39,336 bases of DNA. Source: Hydrogenophilales bacterium 16-61-112. GTDB taxonomy: Bacteria; Pseudomonadota; Gammaproteobacteria; Burkholderiales; Thiobacillaceae. The stretch is from contig NCHD01000020.1 in NCBI GenBank assembly GCA_002257045.1, positions 1-39,336 of the forward strand, read 5' to 3'. Positions 7,324 to 13,299 of this stretch are shown in pieces. A program made the translations under genes and the position numbers. The notes under the pieces are model-generated. The model was given only the letters and a program-made list of their open reading frames with translations. It had not been told where the DNA came from and did not search any database. Numbering within the stretch: the stretch's first letter is position 1; the number at the start of each line of letters is the position of its first letter.

Positions 7324-7546
7324 CAGCCAGCCGCCCTACCGCGCGAGATCATTCATTTCCGGCCGCTTGAAACGAAGCTGACATGTTGGCCCGATAGGAT
7401 GCACCGCGTACCGGATCGATACCGGGCGCACGCGCAGGAATCCTGGCTTCCGCTTCGCCGGACAGCCGGATCGCTCCGGGTCCGCCGCGCGGTCTCGTCG
7501 ATTGCGTACGTCTTGCCCCCTGCAACTCACTTAAGGAACGTCTGCC

Positions 7547-8935
7547 ATGACACTCAACAAGCTTTCACTCGCAATCGGCCTGCTTTTGGCCGGCTCTTCG
7601 GCCTTCGCCTCCGGCACATCTTTTGAAGACTTCACGCCGATGGTGGGCGATACCGTTGCCGGCTCGCTGCCCGAGTCCGCACCCTACAAACTGTCCTCGC
7701 CACACTTCAGCCAGATGACCATCGTGGCGCGTGACACGGCCCAGACCAGCCGTTTCGACAGCGGCAACTACGACATGCACACCGCGAACGAAACCGGCCC
7801 CGACGCCGGCCGTTATCTTTTCACTGTGTACGAAACCAGCCAGGCCGGCATCCAGCGCACCGACCTGCGCACCATGCAGACCACCACCATCTGGAACAGC
7901 CCGGCTGTTTCCCCCGCACTGGACAGCCATAAATCGTTTGACGCTTCGCGCTGGACCCCGTGGGGCACATTCCTCACCGCCGAAGAGTCATGGAGCGACC
8001 CGTACGCCGTCCCCACCAGCCATTACGGCCGCCTGTTTGAAGTGACCAACCCGCTGGCCGCCCCCGCCGACATCGTGATCAAGCACCGCGACATCCTGCC
8101 GCGCGTCTCGCACGAAGGTCTGGCGTTCGACAAGCAAAACAACCTGTACTTCATCGACGAGCGCAACGACAGCCATATCTTCAAGTTCACCTCGGCCAAC
8201 CCGCAGGCTGACAACGGCGACGACTTTTTTGCTGCCGGCCAGACTTTCGTGCTGCGCGTAGGCGACGGCAAGACTGAAGAAGCCACCGGCGCCGCCACCT
8301 GGATTCCGCTGACCGACATGAACGGTGTTGCCCTGCCCGGCGCCGTGGTCGTCACCGACCCCAACGGCCTGACCGCCATCGACGGCCGCGCCACGCCGAA
8401 CCTGCCTGCCTTCCTCGGCACCAACTTCGACCGTCCCGAAGATCTGGAAATCAAGACGCTGAAGAACCACAAGCAAATGCTGTTCGTGGCCACCACCACC
8501 AACCACAAGGTGTTCTCCATCGACCTCGCCACCGACACGGTCAAGCTGTTCGCCAGCCGCGACACGAAAGACATGGCGACCGGCGCCCCCGTCGGCGAGC
8601 AGTTCACCAACCCCGACAATCTGGCGATCGACGCTGACGGCAACCTGTACATCGTCGAAGACCAGCCGGGCGGCAAGCAGGACACCTGGTTCGCCAAAGA
8701 CGACAACAACGATGGCGTCGCAGAAGCCGTCGGCAAGTGGGCCAGCCTGACCACCGTCGGTGCGGAAAGCACCGGCCTGTACTTCGACAAGTTCAAGTCG
8801 AATACCGCCTACATCAACGTGCAGCACCCCAGCAGCAAGGTCGATCGCACCATCATGTTCACCACGCCTTGCCAGAAAACCCAGGGCGACAATGGCCATC
8901 ATTACGGTTACGACAAAGGTCACGACAAGGACTGA
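7547..8935 (+). CDS. secreted PhoX-like (DUF839) protein
   Basis: 462 aa, ATG with AAGGA upstream, Sec-type signal peptide (cleavage near AFA-S at ~22) rather than the twin-arginine signal typical of classical PhoX. The body shows PhoX/DUF839 beta-propeller features: ESWSDPY, LPRVSHEGLAFD, FDRPEDLEI and NPDNLAIDADGNLYIVED, with many Asp/Glu loops suited to calcium binding. PhoX enzymes are calcium-dependent phosphomonoesterases; whether this one is active is not shown. The His/Asp-rich tail (GHHYGYDKGHDKD) is unusual. It lies 223 bp after the sensor kinase on the same strand and has its own terminator. No clear Pho box was found upstream. Confidence 0.8.
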   Translation: MTLNKLSLAIGLLLAGSSAFASGTSFEDFTPMVGDTVAGSLPESAPYKLSSPHFSQMTIVARDTAQTSRFDSGNYDMHTANETGPDAGRYLFTVYETSQAGIQRTDLRTMQTTTIWNSPAVSPALDSHKSFDASRWTPWGTFLTAEESWSDPYAVPTSHYGRLFEVTNPLAAPADIVIKHRDILPRVSHEGLAFDKQNNLYFIDERNDSHIFKFTSANPQADNGDDFFAAGQTFVLRVGDGKTEEATGAATWIPLTDMNGVALPGAVVVTDPNGLTAIDGRATPNLPAFLGTNFDRPEDLEIKTLKNHKQMLFVATTTNHKVFSIDLATDTVKLFASRDTKDMATGAPVGEQFTNPDNLAIDADGNLYIVEDQPGGKQDTWFAKDDNNDGVAEAVGKWASLTTVGAESTGLYFDKFKSNTAYINVQHPSSKVDRTIMFTTPCQKTQGDNGHHYGYDKGHDKD

Positions 8936-8997
8936 ATCCGGGCTGATCCAGCTGGCCGGCTCAACGTAGCCCGGACGGTCAGCGGATAAAAAACCAG

Positions 8998-9023
8998 GCC
9001 CCGCATGCGCAAGCGTGCGGGGC
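8998..9023. terminator. bidirectional terminator after the PhoX-like gene
   Basis: 11-bp stem GCCCCGCATGC/GCGTGCGGGGC (one G-T pair) with a GCAA tetraloop, TTTTT to its right and a run of A to its left. Confidence 0.9.
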
Positions 9024-9153
9024 TTTTTCAATCGGGCAACGTGTTGGCCCACCCGCAACAAAAAGAGGCCGCATTCGCCCCATGCTGGTGCACGGGGCGT
9101 GGAGCGCACGCCACCAACCCTCATCCAGTATTGTTTTACCGGGATTTTTCAAC

Positions 9154-9170
9154 CTGGCATAGAGGCTGCT
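9154..9170 (+). promoter_or_regulatory. candidate sigma-54 promoter for the ATP-grasp/alpha-E operon
   Basis: CTGGCATAGAGGCTGCT matches the -24/-12 consensus (YTGGCACGRNNNTTGCW) at the GG and GC invariants with exactly ten bases between them. The predicted start near 9181 gives a ~60-base leader to the ATG at 9243. The stretch 8936-9242 holds only this site and the terminator at 8998-9023. No enhancer-binding regulator gene is nearby. Confidence 0.5.
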
Positions 9171-9242
9171 CAGTAACCCGGCAGGCCCAAACACAACCGC
9201 GACCACTGCAAATAATAAAGGTGCGCGAAGATCGGAGACCGG

Positions 9243-10712
9243 ATGATGAAGATTGACTGCGACAGTTATCCGCTGCTGGGCGGATACGACGAATTGCTGG
9301 AAGCACCAGGCAAGCCGCGCGCGGGCGCCGGCGGCCTGTGCGACTACTTTGCCGAGCTGCCGACCGACGAACTCGAAGCGCGCCACCGCGCCGTGGACGC
9401 CGCGATCATGGCGGCAGGCATCACCTTCACGGTGTATTCAGAAGCCGGCAACATTGACCGCGCGTGGCCGTTCGACGTGGTACCGCGCATTATCGAAAAA
9501 GCCGAATGGGACCGCATCGAGGCCGGGCTGAAACAGCGCCTGCAGGCGCTCAACCGCTTCATCGACGACATCTACCACGATCAGGCCATCGTCAAGGACG
9601 GCGTGTTTCCCGCCGCGGTACTGGCCGACTCGAAGAACTTCCGCGCGGCCTGCGTCGGCGCCAATCCGCCGTTCGGCGTGTGGGCGCACATCTGCGGCAC
9701 CGACCTCGTGCGCGACGGCGACGGCACGGTCTACGTGCTGGAAGACAACCTGCGCGTGCCGTCCGGCGTGTCCTACATGCTGGAAAACCGCCAGCTGATG
9801 AAAAAGCTGTTCCCCGAGCTGTTCACGCGCTATGACGTACTGCCGGTCGACGACTACACCGCGCAGCTGTACGACATGCTGGCCGCGCTGTCGCCACGCG
9901 CGGGCGAGCGCCCGGAAATTGCCGTGCTCACCCCCGGCGTCTACAACTCGGCGTATTTCGAGCATTCGTATCTGGCGCAGCAAATGGGCGCGCATCTGGT
10001 CGAAGGCTCCGATCTGGTGGTGCTCGACAACGACTGCGTCTACATGAAAACGATCGAAGGTCTGACCCGGCTCGATGTCATCTACCGCCGCGTCGACGAC
10101 GACTTCATCGACCCCGAAGTATTCCGTGCCGACTCCGCGCTCGGCGTGCGCGGCCTGATGCGCGCCTGGAAAGCCGGCAAGGTCGGCATCGCCAACGCGC
10201 CCGGATCAGGCGTCGCCGACGACAAGGTGGTGTACGCCTACGTGCCGCAGATGATCGAGTACTACCTGGGCGAAGCAGCCATCCTGCCCAACGTGCCAAG
10301 CTACCTGTGCATGCACAAGGAAGACTGCGACTACGTGCTGGCGAACCTGGACAAGCTGGTGGTGAAGCCGGCCAACGAATCCGGCGGCTACGGCATGCTG
10401 ATCGGCCCCAAATCGACGCCTGAGGAACAGGCGGTCTTCGCCGAACTGATCAGGGAAAACCCGCGTAACTACATGGCGCAACCCACGCTGTCGCTGTCCA
10501 CCGTACCAACGCTGTGCGACGGCCTGATCGAGCCGCGCCACGTCGACTTGCGGCCGTTCATCCTGCAGTCGAAGGACACCTACGTCACCCGCGGCGGCCT
10601 CACCCGCGTGGCCTTGCGGCGCGGCTCGCTGGTGGTGAACTCATCACAGGGCGGCGGCAGCAAGGACACCTGGGTTGTGCAGGGAGAGGCTGATGCTGGC
10701 GCGCGTAGCTGA
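9243..10712 (+). CDS. circularly permuted ATP-grasp protein (DUF404/DUF407 type)
   Basis: 489 aa, cytoplasmic. It has the family hallmarks: RFIDDIYHD and an N-terminal region leading to LEDNLRVPSGVSYMLENR, DVIYRRVDDDFIDP, KPANESGGYGM (nucleotide-binding loop) and the C-terminal RGGLTRVALRRGSLVVNSSQGGGSKDTWV. Proteins of this type are predicted peptide- or amide-bond-forming ligases (Iyer and Aravind's amidoligase survey) and are nearly always next to an alpha-E protein, as here. The ATG at 9243 is followed at once by a second ATG; GGAG lies just upstream. The end overlaps the next gene by 20 bases. The ligated substrate is unknown. Confidence 0.9.
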   Translation: MMKIDCDSYPLLGGYDELLEAPGKPRAGAGGLCDYFAELPTDELEARHRAVDAAIMAAGITFTVYSEAGNIDRAWPFDVVPRIIEKAEWDRIEAGLKQRLQALNRFIDDIYHDQAIVKDGVFPAAVLADSKNFRAACVGANPPFGVWAHICGTDLVRDGDGTVYVLEDNLRVPSGVSYMLENRQLMKKLFPELFTRYDVLPVDDYTAQLYDMLAALSPRAGERPEIAVLTPGVYNSAYFEHSYLAQQMGAHLVEGSDLVVLDNDCVYMKTIEGLTRLDVIYRRVDDDFIDPEVFRADSALGVRGLMRAWKAGKVGIANAPGSGVADDKVVYAYVPQMIEYYLGEAAILPNVPSYLCMHKEDCDYVLANLDKLVVKPANESGGYGMLIGPKSTPEEQAVFAELIRENPRNYMAQPTLSLSTVPTLCDGLIEPRHVDLRPFILQSKDTYVTRGGLTRVALRRGSLVVNSSQGGGSKDTWVVQGEADAGARS

Positions 10713-11667
10713 AAACCTCTACTGGATGGCGCGTTATCTGGAACGCGCCGAAGACACCGCCCGCCTGATCAACGCCACCACCATGCTGCTGATGGACATG
10801 CCGCGCGGCGCCAGCTTCGGCTGGGACGACCTGCTGCGCGTGGTGGGGCTGGACAAGGCGTTCCACCAGTATCACGACGAGGCGAGCGAAACCGCCGTGA
10901 TGAGTTTTCTGATCCAGGACGAGCGCAATCCGTCGTCGATCTTTGCCTGCGTGCGCCTGGCGCGCGAGAACACCCGCACCTTCCGCGAGGTGTTGCCGCG
11001 CGAATCGTGGGAATGGGTCAACGAGCTCTATCTCTACACCAGCACCCACCTGACCAGCGCGCTCGACCGCCGCAAGCGCTTCGACGTGCTGAACGAAATC
11101 ATCCGCCGCCGCCAGGCCGTGGTCGGCCTGCTTGCCGGCACCATGAGCCGCGACGAAGGTTTTCAGTTCATGCGGCTGGGGCGCAACCTCGAACGCGCCG
11201 ACATGACCACGCGCGTGCTCGACGTCAGCCATGCGATCAACGTGCCCTACCAGAGTAGCGAGGCGGCCCTGCAGCTCAACCTGCCCGACCTGATCTGGAT
11301 GAGCGTGCTGCATGCACTGTCGGCACACCAGATGTACCGCCGCCACGTCAGCGTGCACGCGCGCGGCCACAAGGTGCTTGCGTTCTTGCTCAACGACCCG
11401 CTGTTTCCGCGCAGCGTGCGGCACTGCCTGCATGAAATCCAGTTTGCCCTGGGCGAACTGCCGGGCGTCGAACCGATGCGCCACCTGCAGGGCATGCTCG
11501 ACCAGGTCGACCACGCCAATTACCGCGCGCTGGCCAACAGCGGGCTGCACGCCTTCTGCGACGACATCCAGGCGCGGCTGGCCGAGCTCAACGCCGTCAT
11601 CGCCCAGACCTTTTTTCGCGCGGCGCATTCGCACAACATGACCCAATCGCAGTTCAGCCTGGTTTGA
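10693..11667 (+). CDS. alpha-E domain protein
   Basis: 324 aa, all-helical. The start (ATG with GGAGAGG upstream) gives the typical N-terminus MLARVAENLYWMARYLERAEDTARL, and the repeated RxxxxRExxR and GRxLERADM-type helices fit the alpha-E family. The start lies inside the end of the ATP-grasp gene, so the two are translationally coupled. The role is inferred from genomic association only: these proteins accompany circularly permuted ATP-grasp ligases and are thought to serve the same pathway. The usual third and fourth partners, a transglutaminase-like protein and a proteasome-like (Anbu) peptidase, do not follow here. Confidence 0.9.
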   Translation: MLARVAENLYWMARYLERAEDTARLINATTMLLMDMPRGASFGWDDLLRVVGLDKAFHQYHDEASETAVMSFLIQDERNPSSIFACVRLARENTRTFREVLPRESWEWVNELYLYTSTHLTSALDRRKRFDVLNEIIRRRQAVVGLLAGTMSRDEGFQFMRLGRNLERADMTTRVLDVSHAINVPYQSSEAALQLNLPDLIWMSVLHALSAHQMYRRHVSVHARGHKVLAFLLNDPLFPRSVRHCLHEIQFALGELPGVEPMRHLQGMLDQVDHANYRALANSGLHAFCDDIQARLAELNAVIAQTFFRAAHSHNMTQSQFSLV

Positions 11668-11671
11668 CGAG

Positions 11672-12904
11672 ATGACCGCATCACTCAGTTTTCCCCGCGT
11701 CGGCGACAAGCAGAACTCGTTGCAATTTGAAGACTATCTGGGCCGCCTGCTCGACGAGCGCGACCGCATCGGGCTGACCGACGCGATCCGCCAGATCGAC
11801 GCCCTGATGATCACCGTCGAGCCCAGCCACGCAGTCGCCTACGTTGCCGAACTGTGCGTGATGACGCCGTATCACTACCTGGTCACGCTGGAAACCGAAA
11901 CCCATTTCACCCACATCCTGCGCATCGACATGCACGCGCCCGATCTCCTGGTGCGCGAGGTGAAAGACCCCAACGTGCGCGGTATCTTCCGCAGCCTGAA
12001 CGAGGTCTACCCGATCGGCGCGGTCAAGCCCAACTCGCGCTACATGGGCGAAGTGCTGCGCGTGACCGATGCCCACGCCGTGGTCGACATGCAGAAGGCG
12101 CGCGACATCCGCTTCTTCAACCAGGAACAGATACGCAAGCTCGAGCTGCCCGGCAACCTGGCCGTGGTCAAGCCCAGCCCCTACACCCACAACATCGTCG
12201 CCTACTGGGAGCGCCCCGAGTCAGACATCCGCGTCTACGCCCTTGGCTGGAGCAGCATCCGCGACGACCTGCAGGCCGCGTACGAAGCCGCCAAGACGAC
12301 GCAAAAGCGGCTCGGCATCGACGACCTGCTGCTGCCGATCGACCACCTGGCCACCCGCCTCTACAGCCAGAACCGCGAATCCGCCATCCTCGAATACCTG
12401 ACGCTGACGAGCTACTACTTCTGGGGCGCCTACGACATCGAAGACCAGAACTCGTCGACCAACGTCACCAAGAGCGTGCACTACGCCAACGAACTCGAAT
12501 CGCCGGCCAAGGTGTTCACCGCTGCCAACCACCCCTACTTCATGAACCACCTGCTGACCGAATCGCCGACCGAAGCCTTCGTGCGCAACTTCGGCCCGCG
12601 CCTGCATCACATTGCCGTCGCGGTGAAAGACGGCGAAACCGCCGCGCTCGCCAACATCGACCATGTCGTCAACGCGCTGCGCGATTGCGGGCAGAGCTTC
12701 CTGCTCGATGTCATCGGATCGAAGGAAGCGGGACTCAAGCAGATCTTCTCCAGCGCCTCGGAATACTCCTCGCTGATCATCGAATACGTGCAGCGCTTCG
12801 GCGGCTTCGAGGGCTTTTTCACCAAGGACAACGTCGCCGAACTGACCCAGGCCGCCGGCGCAGAAGAATCGCTCCGCGCGCTGCAGGAAGCCGCCCAGGC
12901 CTGA
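11672..12904 (+). CDS. HPPD-like VOC-fold protein, putative non-haem Fe(II) dioxygenase
   Basis: 410 aa beginning five bases after the alpha-E stop. The C-terminal half (~215-395) aligns by eye with the catalytic domain of 4-hydroxyphenylpyruvate dioxygenase: PIDH225LA, RLHH313IAVAV, LKQIFSS and IIE371YVQRFGGFEGFF. These supply the two His and one Glu that bind iron in HPPD and other vicinal-oxygen-chelate enzymes. The first ~210 residues do not resemble the HPPD N-terminal domain and I do not recognise them. Given the operon, the likely substrate is the product or precursor of the ATP-grasp ligase, but that is inference. I have no gene symbol. It is not expected to be the tyrosine-degradation enzyme. 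Confidence 0.65.
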   Translation: MTASLSFPRVGDKQNSLQFEDYLGRLLDERDRIGLTDAIRQIDALMITVEPSHAVAYVAELCVMTPYHYLVTLETETHFTHILRIDMHAPDLLVREVKDPNVRGIFRSLNEVYPIGAVKPNSRYMGEVLRVTDAHAVVDMQKARDIRFFNQEQIRKLELPGNLAVVKPSPYTHNIVAYWERPESDIRVYALGWSSIRDDLQAAYEAAKTTQKRLGIDDLLLPIDHLATRLYSQNRESAILEYLTLTSYYFWGAYDIEDQNSSTNVTKSVHYANELESPAKVFTAANHPYFMNHLLTESPTEAFVRNFGPRLHHIAVAVKDGETAALANIDHVVNALRDCGQSFLLDVIGSKEAGLKQIFSSASEYSSLIIEYVQRFGGFEGFFTKDNVAELTQAAGAEESLRALQEAAQA

Positions 12905-13005
12905 CCCATCCAGAACTGAAATTTCAGGGCATACAGGCTCAAGTTTGGTAACACGCAACCGTATCAATCAGTATTCAATTAAATTCTTATACAGCGGAGA
13001 AACGC

Positions 13006-13299
13006 ATGGACCGGGAAACCCTGAACGAGATGGTGAAATTGAAATTCGCCGCGCGCAAAGCCGACGGAATGGTCATCGACCTGGTCAAGCTGGCAGCCGA
13101 TGCCGACTACGCCGACGCCGTCCTCAGCGCGGTTGAAAACCTGCCAGACGAATCCCTGGTCCTGCTGGCGATGACCCTGCGCGACAAGTTCGGCCTGCTG
13201 TCGGCGCAGCCCGCAACCCCGCTGCGCGAAGCCGCGCCGGCAGAGAAAAAATCCGCAGCACACGCTACCGAGCGCTACACCTACGGCGCGCGCAGCTAG
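13006..13299 (+). CDS. small protein of unknown function in the ATP-grasp operon
   Basis: 97 aa, ATG at 13006 with GGAGA six bases upstream. Residues 1-65 are predicted helical and amphipathic (MDRETLNEMVKLKFAARKAD, LPDESLVLLAMTLRDKFGLL); the tail is a Pro/Ala-rich linker ending in an Arg/Tyr-rich stretch. No signal peptide, no membrane segment, no Cys. The 101-bp gap from the dioxygenase-like gene contains a perfect 12-bp palindrome (12916-12927) and AT-rich sequence that could hold a separate promoter, so it may be co-transcribed or independent. I do not recognise the family. Confidence 0.6.
   Translation: MDRETLNEMVKLKFAARKADGMVIDLVKLAADADYADAVLSAVENLPDESLVLLAMTLRDKFGLLSAQPATPLREAAPAEKKSAAHATERYTYGARS

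Follow-up and report, generated by a model that had tools for sequence, protein, structure and literature searches.

The window, a 39,336-nucleotide stretch of DNA from Hydrogenophilales bacterium 16-61-112, comes from contig C134 of a draft genome (2.9 Mb, 94% complete) that is closest, among named organisms, to Hydrogenophilales and Thiobacillus. Three of its genes run head to tail from 9243 to 12904, and encode a circularly permuted (CP) ATP-grasp protein, an alpha-E protein, and a protein of the VOC type. These genes are confirmed as one operon. The ATP-grasp/alpha-E system is a known one; here it has a recurrent oxygenase-like partner.

9243..10712, + strand: CP-ATP-grasp gene (PF14403, E 9.2e-166), the only place found in the draft genome
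10693..11667, + strand: alpha-E gene (PF04168, E 2.6e-85), the only place found in the draft genome
11672..12904, + strand: gene for an HPPD-like VOC protein of 410 residues, a probable Fe(II) oxygenase (homology, fold and profile tests)

The start of the alpha-E gene overlaps the end of the ATP-grasp gene. An earlier, sequence-only reading of this DNA had proposed the ATP-grasp/alpha-E/VOC operon, which is borne out by the PF14403 and PF04168 matches, the overlapping genes and the tight spacing; it placed the VOC start five bases on, and the gap from the alpha-E stop is in fact four. The conserved ATP-grasp start is probably 9246, in a start region conserved among relatives, and the open reading frame listing also has a TTG start for alpha-E at 10675.

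Clusters of ATP-grasp, alpha-E and DUF2126 genes, of the amidoligase type, were reportedly described by Iyer et al. in 2009. The likeness extends to the window genome, which encodes a DUF2126-transglutaminase, and to 27 of 65 VOC loci, where such a gene lies inside the stretch read. The CP-ATP-grasp gene also adjoins the alpha-E gene in the Anbu operon of Pseudomonas putida (PP_2685–PP_2688), whose transglutaminase and Anbu have counterparts in the window genome; here, however, those two are unlinked and the HPPD-like VOC gene is added. The available portions of three papers on the P. putida operon and on Anbu (PMC7801951, PMC8050072, PMC6376114) name no VOC gene. A literature search for a VOC or dioxygenase partner of the ATP-grasp/transglutaminase system found none among the titles listed, with Iyer et al. 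2009 outside that check.

Neither a transglutaminase-like gene nor Anbu was found in the window operon by inspection of open reading frames and Pfam search of the window, and the sequence-only reading took the VOC gene to stand there instead of the usual transglutaminase and peptidase. It also proposed a look elsewhere in the genome, where both were found on other contigs. The PF01841 profile, run over the whole genome, marks three transglutaminase-core places: a 1114-residue Bact_transglu_N/Transglut_core/DUF2126 protein (C38); a 286-residue Bact_transglu_N/Transglut_core protein (C162); and a 358-residue protein with the transglutaminase core alone, adjoining a DsbD gene (C172). The PF00227 profile marks two: a 259-residue protein that matches solved Anbu structures (C184; best E 3.6e-79); and a frame that, to judge from the translations, is presumably HslV beside HslU (C161). 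The parts of the system are present but scattered in this genome.

Loss of the transglutaminase and Anbu from the genome, considered as a candidate explanation, is ruled out by the DUF2126-transglutaminase, the 286-residue transglutaminase and Anbu. That the VOC protein replaces them in the operon's pathway, as their absence from the operon itself might suggest, is extremely improbable: this genome has them at other places, and relatives have the VOC gene side by side with transglutaminase and Anbu genes.

The VOC gene and the ATP-grasp/alpha-E system

The distribution of the VOC gene was assessed in two sets of genomes: a class sample of 369, drawn evenly from the class; and a phylum sample of 398. 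A profile search found the VOC protein in 30 of the class genomes and in seven of the phylum sample, five of these in one family outside the class. Alpha-E is present in 106 of the 369 class genomes and DUF2126 in 65. Alpha-E accompanies the VOC protein in 28 of 30 genomes, versus 78 of the 339 that are VOC-free (Fisher p 1e-14), and DUF2126 is in 24 of 30 versus 41 of 339 (p 4e-15). Even among alpha-E-bearing genomes, DUF2126 is present in 24 of 28 with the VOC gene and in 41 of 78 without it (p 0.0014); all of these p-values assume independent genomes, an assumption that related genomes break.

Scanning genome contigs yielded 30 VOC loci, from Thiobacillus and Hydrogenophilales, Methylomonas, Methylobacter, Acidithiobacillus, Chromatiales-type metagenome-assembled genomes (MAGs), and others. 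The VOC proteins of the linked relatives compared are 61–98% identical to that of the window (61–73% at loci outside the Thiobacillus type) and a distant Crenothrix copy is 37% identical, so this open reading frame is not fortuitous.

Linkage to a system gene was seen in 25 of these 30 contig-scan loci, in 3 of 6 phylum-sample loci, and in 15 of the 30 VOC genomes of the class sample. The last count comprises 12 genomes, the window's own, and two (G048 and G264) in which a cut VOC fragment shares a contig with alpha-E, the G264 fragment being weak (E 3.9e-8) and having an internal stop. Of the 29 class-sample loci, 13, from those 12 genomes, contain one or more of the genes for ATP-grasp, alpha-E, DUF2126-transglutaminase and the 286-residue type. 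Recurrent linkage of the VOC gene to the CP-ATP-grasp/alpha-E pair, which the sequence-only reading proposed to seek in many genomes, is therefore real but found in half of the VOC genomes of the class sample. A VOC gene found mostly in unrelated contexts, which that reading named as telling against it, is likewise a half-and-half matter for linkage, whereas co-occurrence with alpha-E is close to complete.

By our own count the VOC and system genes take about ten arrangements in relatives. These include ATP-grasp, alpha-E, VOC, with or without a DUF2126 gene behind them; ATP-grasp/alpha-E with the VOC gene running divergently; VOC, DUF2126, a fused ATP-grasp-alpha-E gene, and transglutaminase; DUF2126, Anbu, transglutaminase, VOC; and, at L083 and L086, ATP-grasp, alpha-E, Anbu, VOC. 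Anbu homologues lie inside 10 of the 65 VOC loci. The neighbouring ATP-grasps also differ: those of the Thiobacillus type are 88–98% identical to the window's, and those outside it fall into three groups, at 63–69%, 50–53%, and, for the fused form, 34–38%. A tree built from 61 VOC proteins requires the linked label to change 12 times, with at least eight of the changes forced by well-supported branches; these labels were set by hand, some unlinked rows are on short contigs, and L093 is unlabelled though its genome, G048, is counted as linked elsewhere. The association was probably kept or rebuilt many times.

Two results count against membership of the VOC protein in the system. The flanks read showed no system gene in 15 of the 30 VOC genomes, in several of which the contig is short or breaks off at the VOC gene. 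Moreover, the alpha-E profile has no match in two of the 30, G280 (99% complete) and G318 (79% complete). Both results would suit a VOC protein that is a separate nitrogen-starvation enzyme (it might, say, degrade the aromatic or keto acid that remains after removal of amino nitrogen) and is a neighbour through shared conditions only. We consider this unlikely. Such an enzyme would not be expected in operon-like neighbourhoods of many arrangements, with several kinds of ATP-grasp, or to show this co-occurrence with alpha-E; nor does it sit well with the promoter regions described below. Membership of the VOC protein in the ATP-grasp/alpha-E system is, on balance, very probable.

Several individual loci deserve mention. 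Three of Acidithiobacillus types (L018, L028 and L081, the last from G280) have a VOC gene with neither ATP-grasp nor alpha-E in the stretch read, an unexplained exception. At L080 (G081:C39, about 7500–9171) a split ATP-grasp/alpha-E pair beside an open VOC frame is spread over several frames and apparently broken; a fused ATP-grasp-alpha-E gene and a DUF2126 gene nearby are open. L009 has, convergent with its VOC operon, a further and more divergent ATP-grasp/alpha-E pair (65% and 43% identical to the window's). Finally, a record titled Rhizobium sp. has a Thiobacillus-type locus (L010) with 89% VOC identity, and is perhaps a mislabelled MAG.

An HPPD-like VOC protein

In Pfam the VOC protein has only a sub-threshold match, to Glyoxalase_4 (E 0.014), seen also in 18 of 30 family members at a best E of 0.007. 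An NCBIfam search up to E 1 gave no match, 4HPPD (TIGR01263) included. The family is therefore without a name or model in both databases.

Two lines of evidence point to HPPD. First, the best Foldseek matches of the protein's AlphaFold2 model in the PDB are HPPD and hydroxymandelate synthase (E 1.2e-6); a search of viral structures gave no match at E <= 0.001. The model, built from 30 sequences, has a mean predicted local distance difference test score (pLDDT) of 58.6, with much of residues 41–220 good. The N-terminal domain, called unrecognised in the sequence-only reading, is thus the better-modelled half of a protein whose best fold matches are HPPDs. Second, a hidden Markov model (HMM) built from five bacterial HPPDs was run on 7798 six-frame open reading frames of the loci, 66 of them of the VOC family; frames of that family took 23 of the first 25 ranks and 44 of the first 50. 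With ten column-shuffled control models the counts were 0–2 of 25 and 0–5 of 50, and with one reversed model zero.

A third likeness was noted by eye: DH, HH and QIF...E segments stand in the same order as in HPPD. Three residues were picked from these segments by comparison with the motifs and ligands of HPPD.

12344..12346, + strand: codon for His225 (IDHLATR), first presumed metal ligand, invariant in 61/61 sequences; role assigned by eye from the HPPD motif
12608..12610, + strand: codon for His313 (RLHHIA), second presumed metal ligand, invariant in 61/61; role assigned by eye
12782..12784, + strand: codon for Glu371 (QIFSSASEYSSLIIEYVQR), third presumed metal ligand, invariant in 61/61; weak HPPD profile alignment

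Across the 61 VOC sequences the invariant residues include His78, His225, His312, His313, Gln357 and Glu371. In the four alignments printed, all with weak scores, the HPPD stretch LLLQIF...FFEFIQR lies on VOC LKQIF...IIEYVQR and Glu371 falls on the HPPD glutamate. His225 and His313 are presumed equivalents of the HPPD ligands, as is Glu371 by that weak profile alignment.

A number of results pull the other way. The highest TM-score from Foldseek, relative to the query, is 0.33. The C-terminal half, which bears the presumed ligands, mostly has a pLDDT below 50, and modelled by itself (mean pLDDT 46.1) it did not yield the fold. The HPPD HMM gives weak E-values: the best, 0.00087, belongs to a fragment present in two copies, and the best full-length protein has 0.067. 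Moreover, the VOC frames it ranks are kin to one another. In the same four printed alignments, the profile places the RLHH stretch on the N-terminal repeat of HPPD rather than on the C-terminal one, so that only the last of the three segments agrees with the arrangement seen by eye. Profile-profile comparison of the VOC alignment with the five HPPDs (hhalign) was not significant, at a probability of 0.5, and hmmsearch of PDB sequences with full and C-terminal VOC profiles retrieved no HPPD. Pairwise Smith-Waterman Z-scores for the C-terminal halves, 0.7 to 5.3, are not decisive. No more diverse HPPD frames were found in L121–L123 by the motif used.

Together, the fold and profile-ranking tests suggest a distant HPPD kinship. 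We describe the protein as HPPD-like rather than as an HPPD: it differs in gene context as well as in family match. The HPPD-type VOC protein of the sequence-only reading accordingly keeps its fold and its profile ranking, and loses the family match and a significant profile-profile score. That it serves these organisms as their HPPD, in ordinary tyrosine breakdown, is very improbable. Its likeness to HPPD would fit, as would the lack of any HPPD over the family cut-off in 25 of 26 VOC-bearing genomes examined (26 of the 30). However, it fails to match 4HPPD, and its gene clusters with an amide-ligase system.

Another VOC-type iron enzyme is HGLS (2-oxoadipate dioxygenase/decarboxylase, or hydroxyglutarate synthase; PF07063). 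This candidate was rejected: at an E limit of 1 the protein shows no match to PF07063, and a two-sequence HGLS profile placed no VOC frame in its top 50.

VOC domains are sometimes non-catalytic, and the protein might instead have lost its activity and now sense iron or oxygen, or hold the ATP-grasp/alpha-E pair together as a scaffold. This is quite improbable, for His225, His313, Glu371 and Gln357 are invariant in all 61 sequences, as an active site would be. On balance, the VOC protein is probably an iron oxygenase.

Promoter-like sites and flanking genes

Two sites upstream of the ATP-grasp gene resemble elements of nitrogen control. They were scored against the sigma-54 and NtrC consensus sequences.

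9155..9170, + strand: sigma-54-like -24/-12 element TGGCATAGAGGCTGCT, with TGGCA and TGC identical across the window and 11/11 aligned relatives
9076..9092, + strand: NtrC-like palindrome CGCCCC-N5-GGTGCA, 10/12 consensus positions

TGGCATAGAGGCTGCT matches the sigma-54 consensus at 9 of 11 positions. The bare pattern is not rare in the window (2 found, 0.59 expected); the site has weight because it is conserved while its flanks diverge. Twelve promoters are aligned, the window's and those from 11 of 14 Thiobacillus-type loci (L002–L015); L008, L010 and L011 fall outside it, yet have a sigma-54-like site. The sigma-54 site of the sequence-only reading therefore stands as a conserved sigma-54-like element. 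Taken alone, the NtrC-like palindrome does not stand out from chance in the window (4 observed, 3.64 expected), and several relatives have better palindromes at a similar upstream distance.

More broadly, a sigma-54-like site of at least 9/11 lies upstream of 28 of 38 ATP-grasp starts, versus 3.4% of random 220-base windows. An NtrC-like palindrome of at least 10/12 is near 14 of 38, versus 3.5%, and at the looser score of 9 near 24 of 38, versus 23%; in all of these comparisons the random windows come from any locus position, not only intergenic DNA, and many of the ATP-grasp rows are close relatives.

VOC genes that are not directly behind alpha-E present a different picture. A strong sigma-54-like site precedes 9 of these 37 genes. 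The other 28 are without one, which tells against common induction of the VOC gene and the system; it also tells against the VOC protein as a separate nitrogen-starvation enzyme, since shared sigma-54 control alone cannot explain the link. At one locus (L095, G156:C16) the VOC gene is in two overlapping frames, through a frame change, yet has an 11/11 sigma-54-like site before it.

The homologous P. putida operon offers a comparison, in the portions of the papers available. Its control by NtrB/NtrC is called probable, and in the wild type PP_2686–PP_2688 rise 11- to 15-fold under nitrogen limitation (PMC7801951). PP_2685 and PP_2688 are up about 2^4 on nitrate versus ammonium, and a PP_2688 reporter is up 3.7-fold (PMC8050072); Anbu expression during nitrogen starvation is described as high (PMC6376114). 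The sigma-54-like and NtrC-like sites here are thus a possible further likeness to the Anbu operon, and the invariant sigma-54-like site fits the published induction. Three P. putida results do not favour this interpretation. In an rpoN mutant, PP_2686–PP_2688 retain a 14- to 20-fold induction (PMC7801951, Table 2); Anbu (PP_2685) changes only 1.12-fold in the wild type (PMC7801951); and a PP_2685 promoter reporter shows no nitrogen response (PMC8050072). The urt genes also stay induced by nitrogen limitation in the rpoN mutant (PMC7801951, Table 2). The persistent induction of both the ATP-grasp/alpha-E/transglutaminase operon and urt is at odds with simple sigma-54 control.

The operon is flanked on both sides by other genes. 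Just 5' of it lies a gene for a PhoX-like protein (7547–8935, + strand; PF05787, E 4.5e-22), in the same place in L002–L005. Beyond it is the small protein gene of the sequence-only reading.

13006..13299, + strand: gene for a small lineage-specific protein of 97 residues, 101 bases beyond the VOC stop

As that reading had it, the small protein follows the VOC gene; searches of Pfam and NCBIfam to an E of 1 assigned it no family. It was found in one of the 369 class genomes, its own. The gene was seen at Thiobacillus-type loci only, in 11 of 14, and in 4 of those 11 it is upstream of the ATP-grasp gene. As a component of the system it was therefore set low, given this narrow distribution and variable position; it is probably a lineage-specific neighbor, not part of the system proper.

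Proposed role of the VOC protein

These results suggest an overall explanation, in which the VOC protein is an optional Fe(II) oxygenase of the ATP-grasp/alpha-E/transglutaminase/DUF2126/Anbu system, induced by nitrogen limitation and targeting a chelating group in the pathway. We hold it to be somewhat likelier than its negation, a confidence lowered because of the P. putida rpoN result. Sequence evidence supports it through gene order, co-occurrence, the conserved promoter-like site, the ligand-like pattern and the distant HPPD kinship. We infer iron binding, use of O2, a functional promoter, an action of the oxygenase on what the ATP-grasp step makes, and a matured product or freed nitrogen.

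Nitrogen limitation, probably acting through NtrC and sigma-54, would switch on ATP-grasp, alpha-E and the oxygenase together. ATP-grasp, with alpha-E, would activate a carboxylate as an acyl phosphate and make an amide, presumably a small one; transglutaminase-like proteins and Anbu, encoded elsewhere, would act on amides of this pathway by transfer or hydrolysis. The HPPD-like oxygenase, presumably of two domains and with a putative 2-His-1-Glu site in its C-terminal half, would use O2 and Fe(II) to attack an alpha-keto-acid-like or other chelating group of a pathway substrate or product. The outcome would be either a matured product or freed nitrogen.

The available portions of one paper (PMC6376114) bear on the amide-forming steps. 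ATP-grasp enzymes form amide bonds through acyl phosphates, and a Yersinia homologue of ATP-grasp releases phosphate from ATP. The Yersinia work detected no specific interactions among the operon proteins. Purified Anbu had no peptidase activity, and the role of the system was without experimental confirmation at that time.

The more specific the chemistry, the less firmly it can be put. That the VOC protein acts on the pathway's own product falls a little short of an even chance. More tentative is the idea that an HPPD-like iron oxygenase oxidizes the amide product of the Anbu/ATP-grasp/alpha-E system, and so provides an O2-dependent step in a range of Proteobacteria including Thiobacillus and Methylomonas. 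The peptide-like oxidized product envisaged in the sequence-only reading is a guess.

The system is widespread, reportedly induced by nitrogen starvation, and obscure in function, and a recurrent oxygenase-like partner narrows its possible chemistry. An assay of Fe(II) and O2 uptake provides a handle that is independent of guessing Anbu's substrate. If the O2-dependent step is real, its oxygenase would belong to a family not described before and would give a first clue to the product of the pathway.

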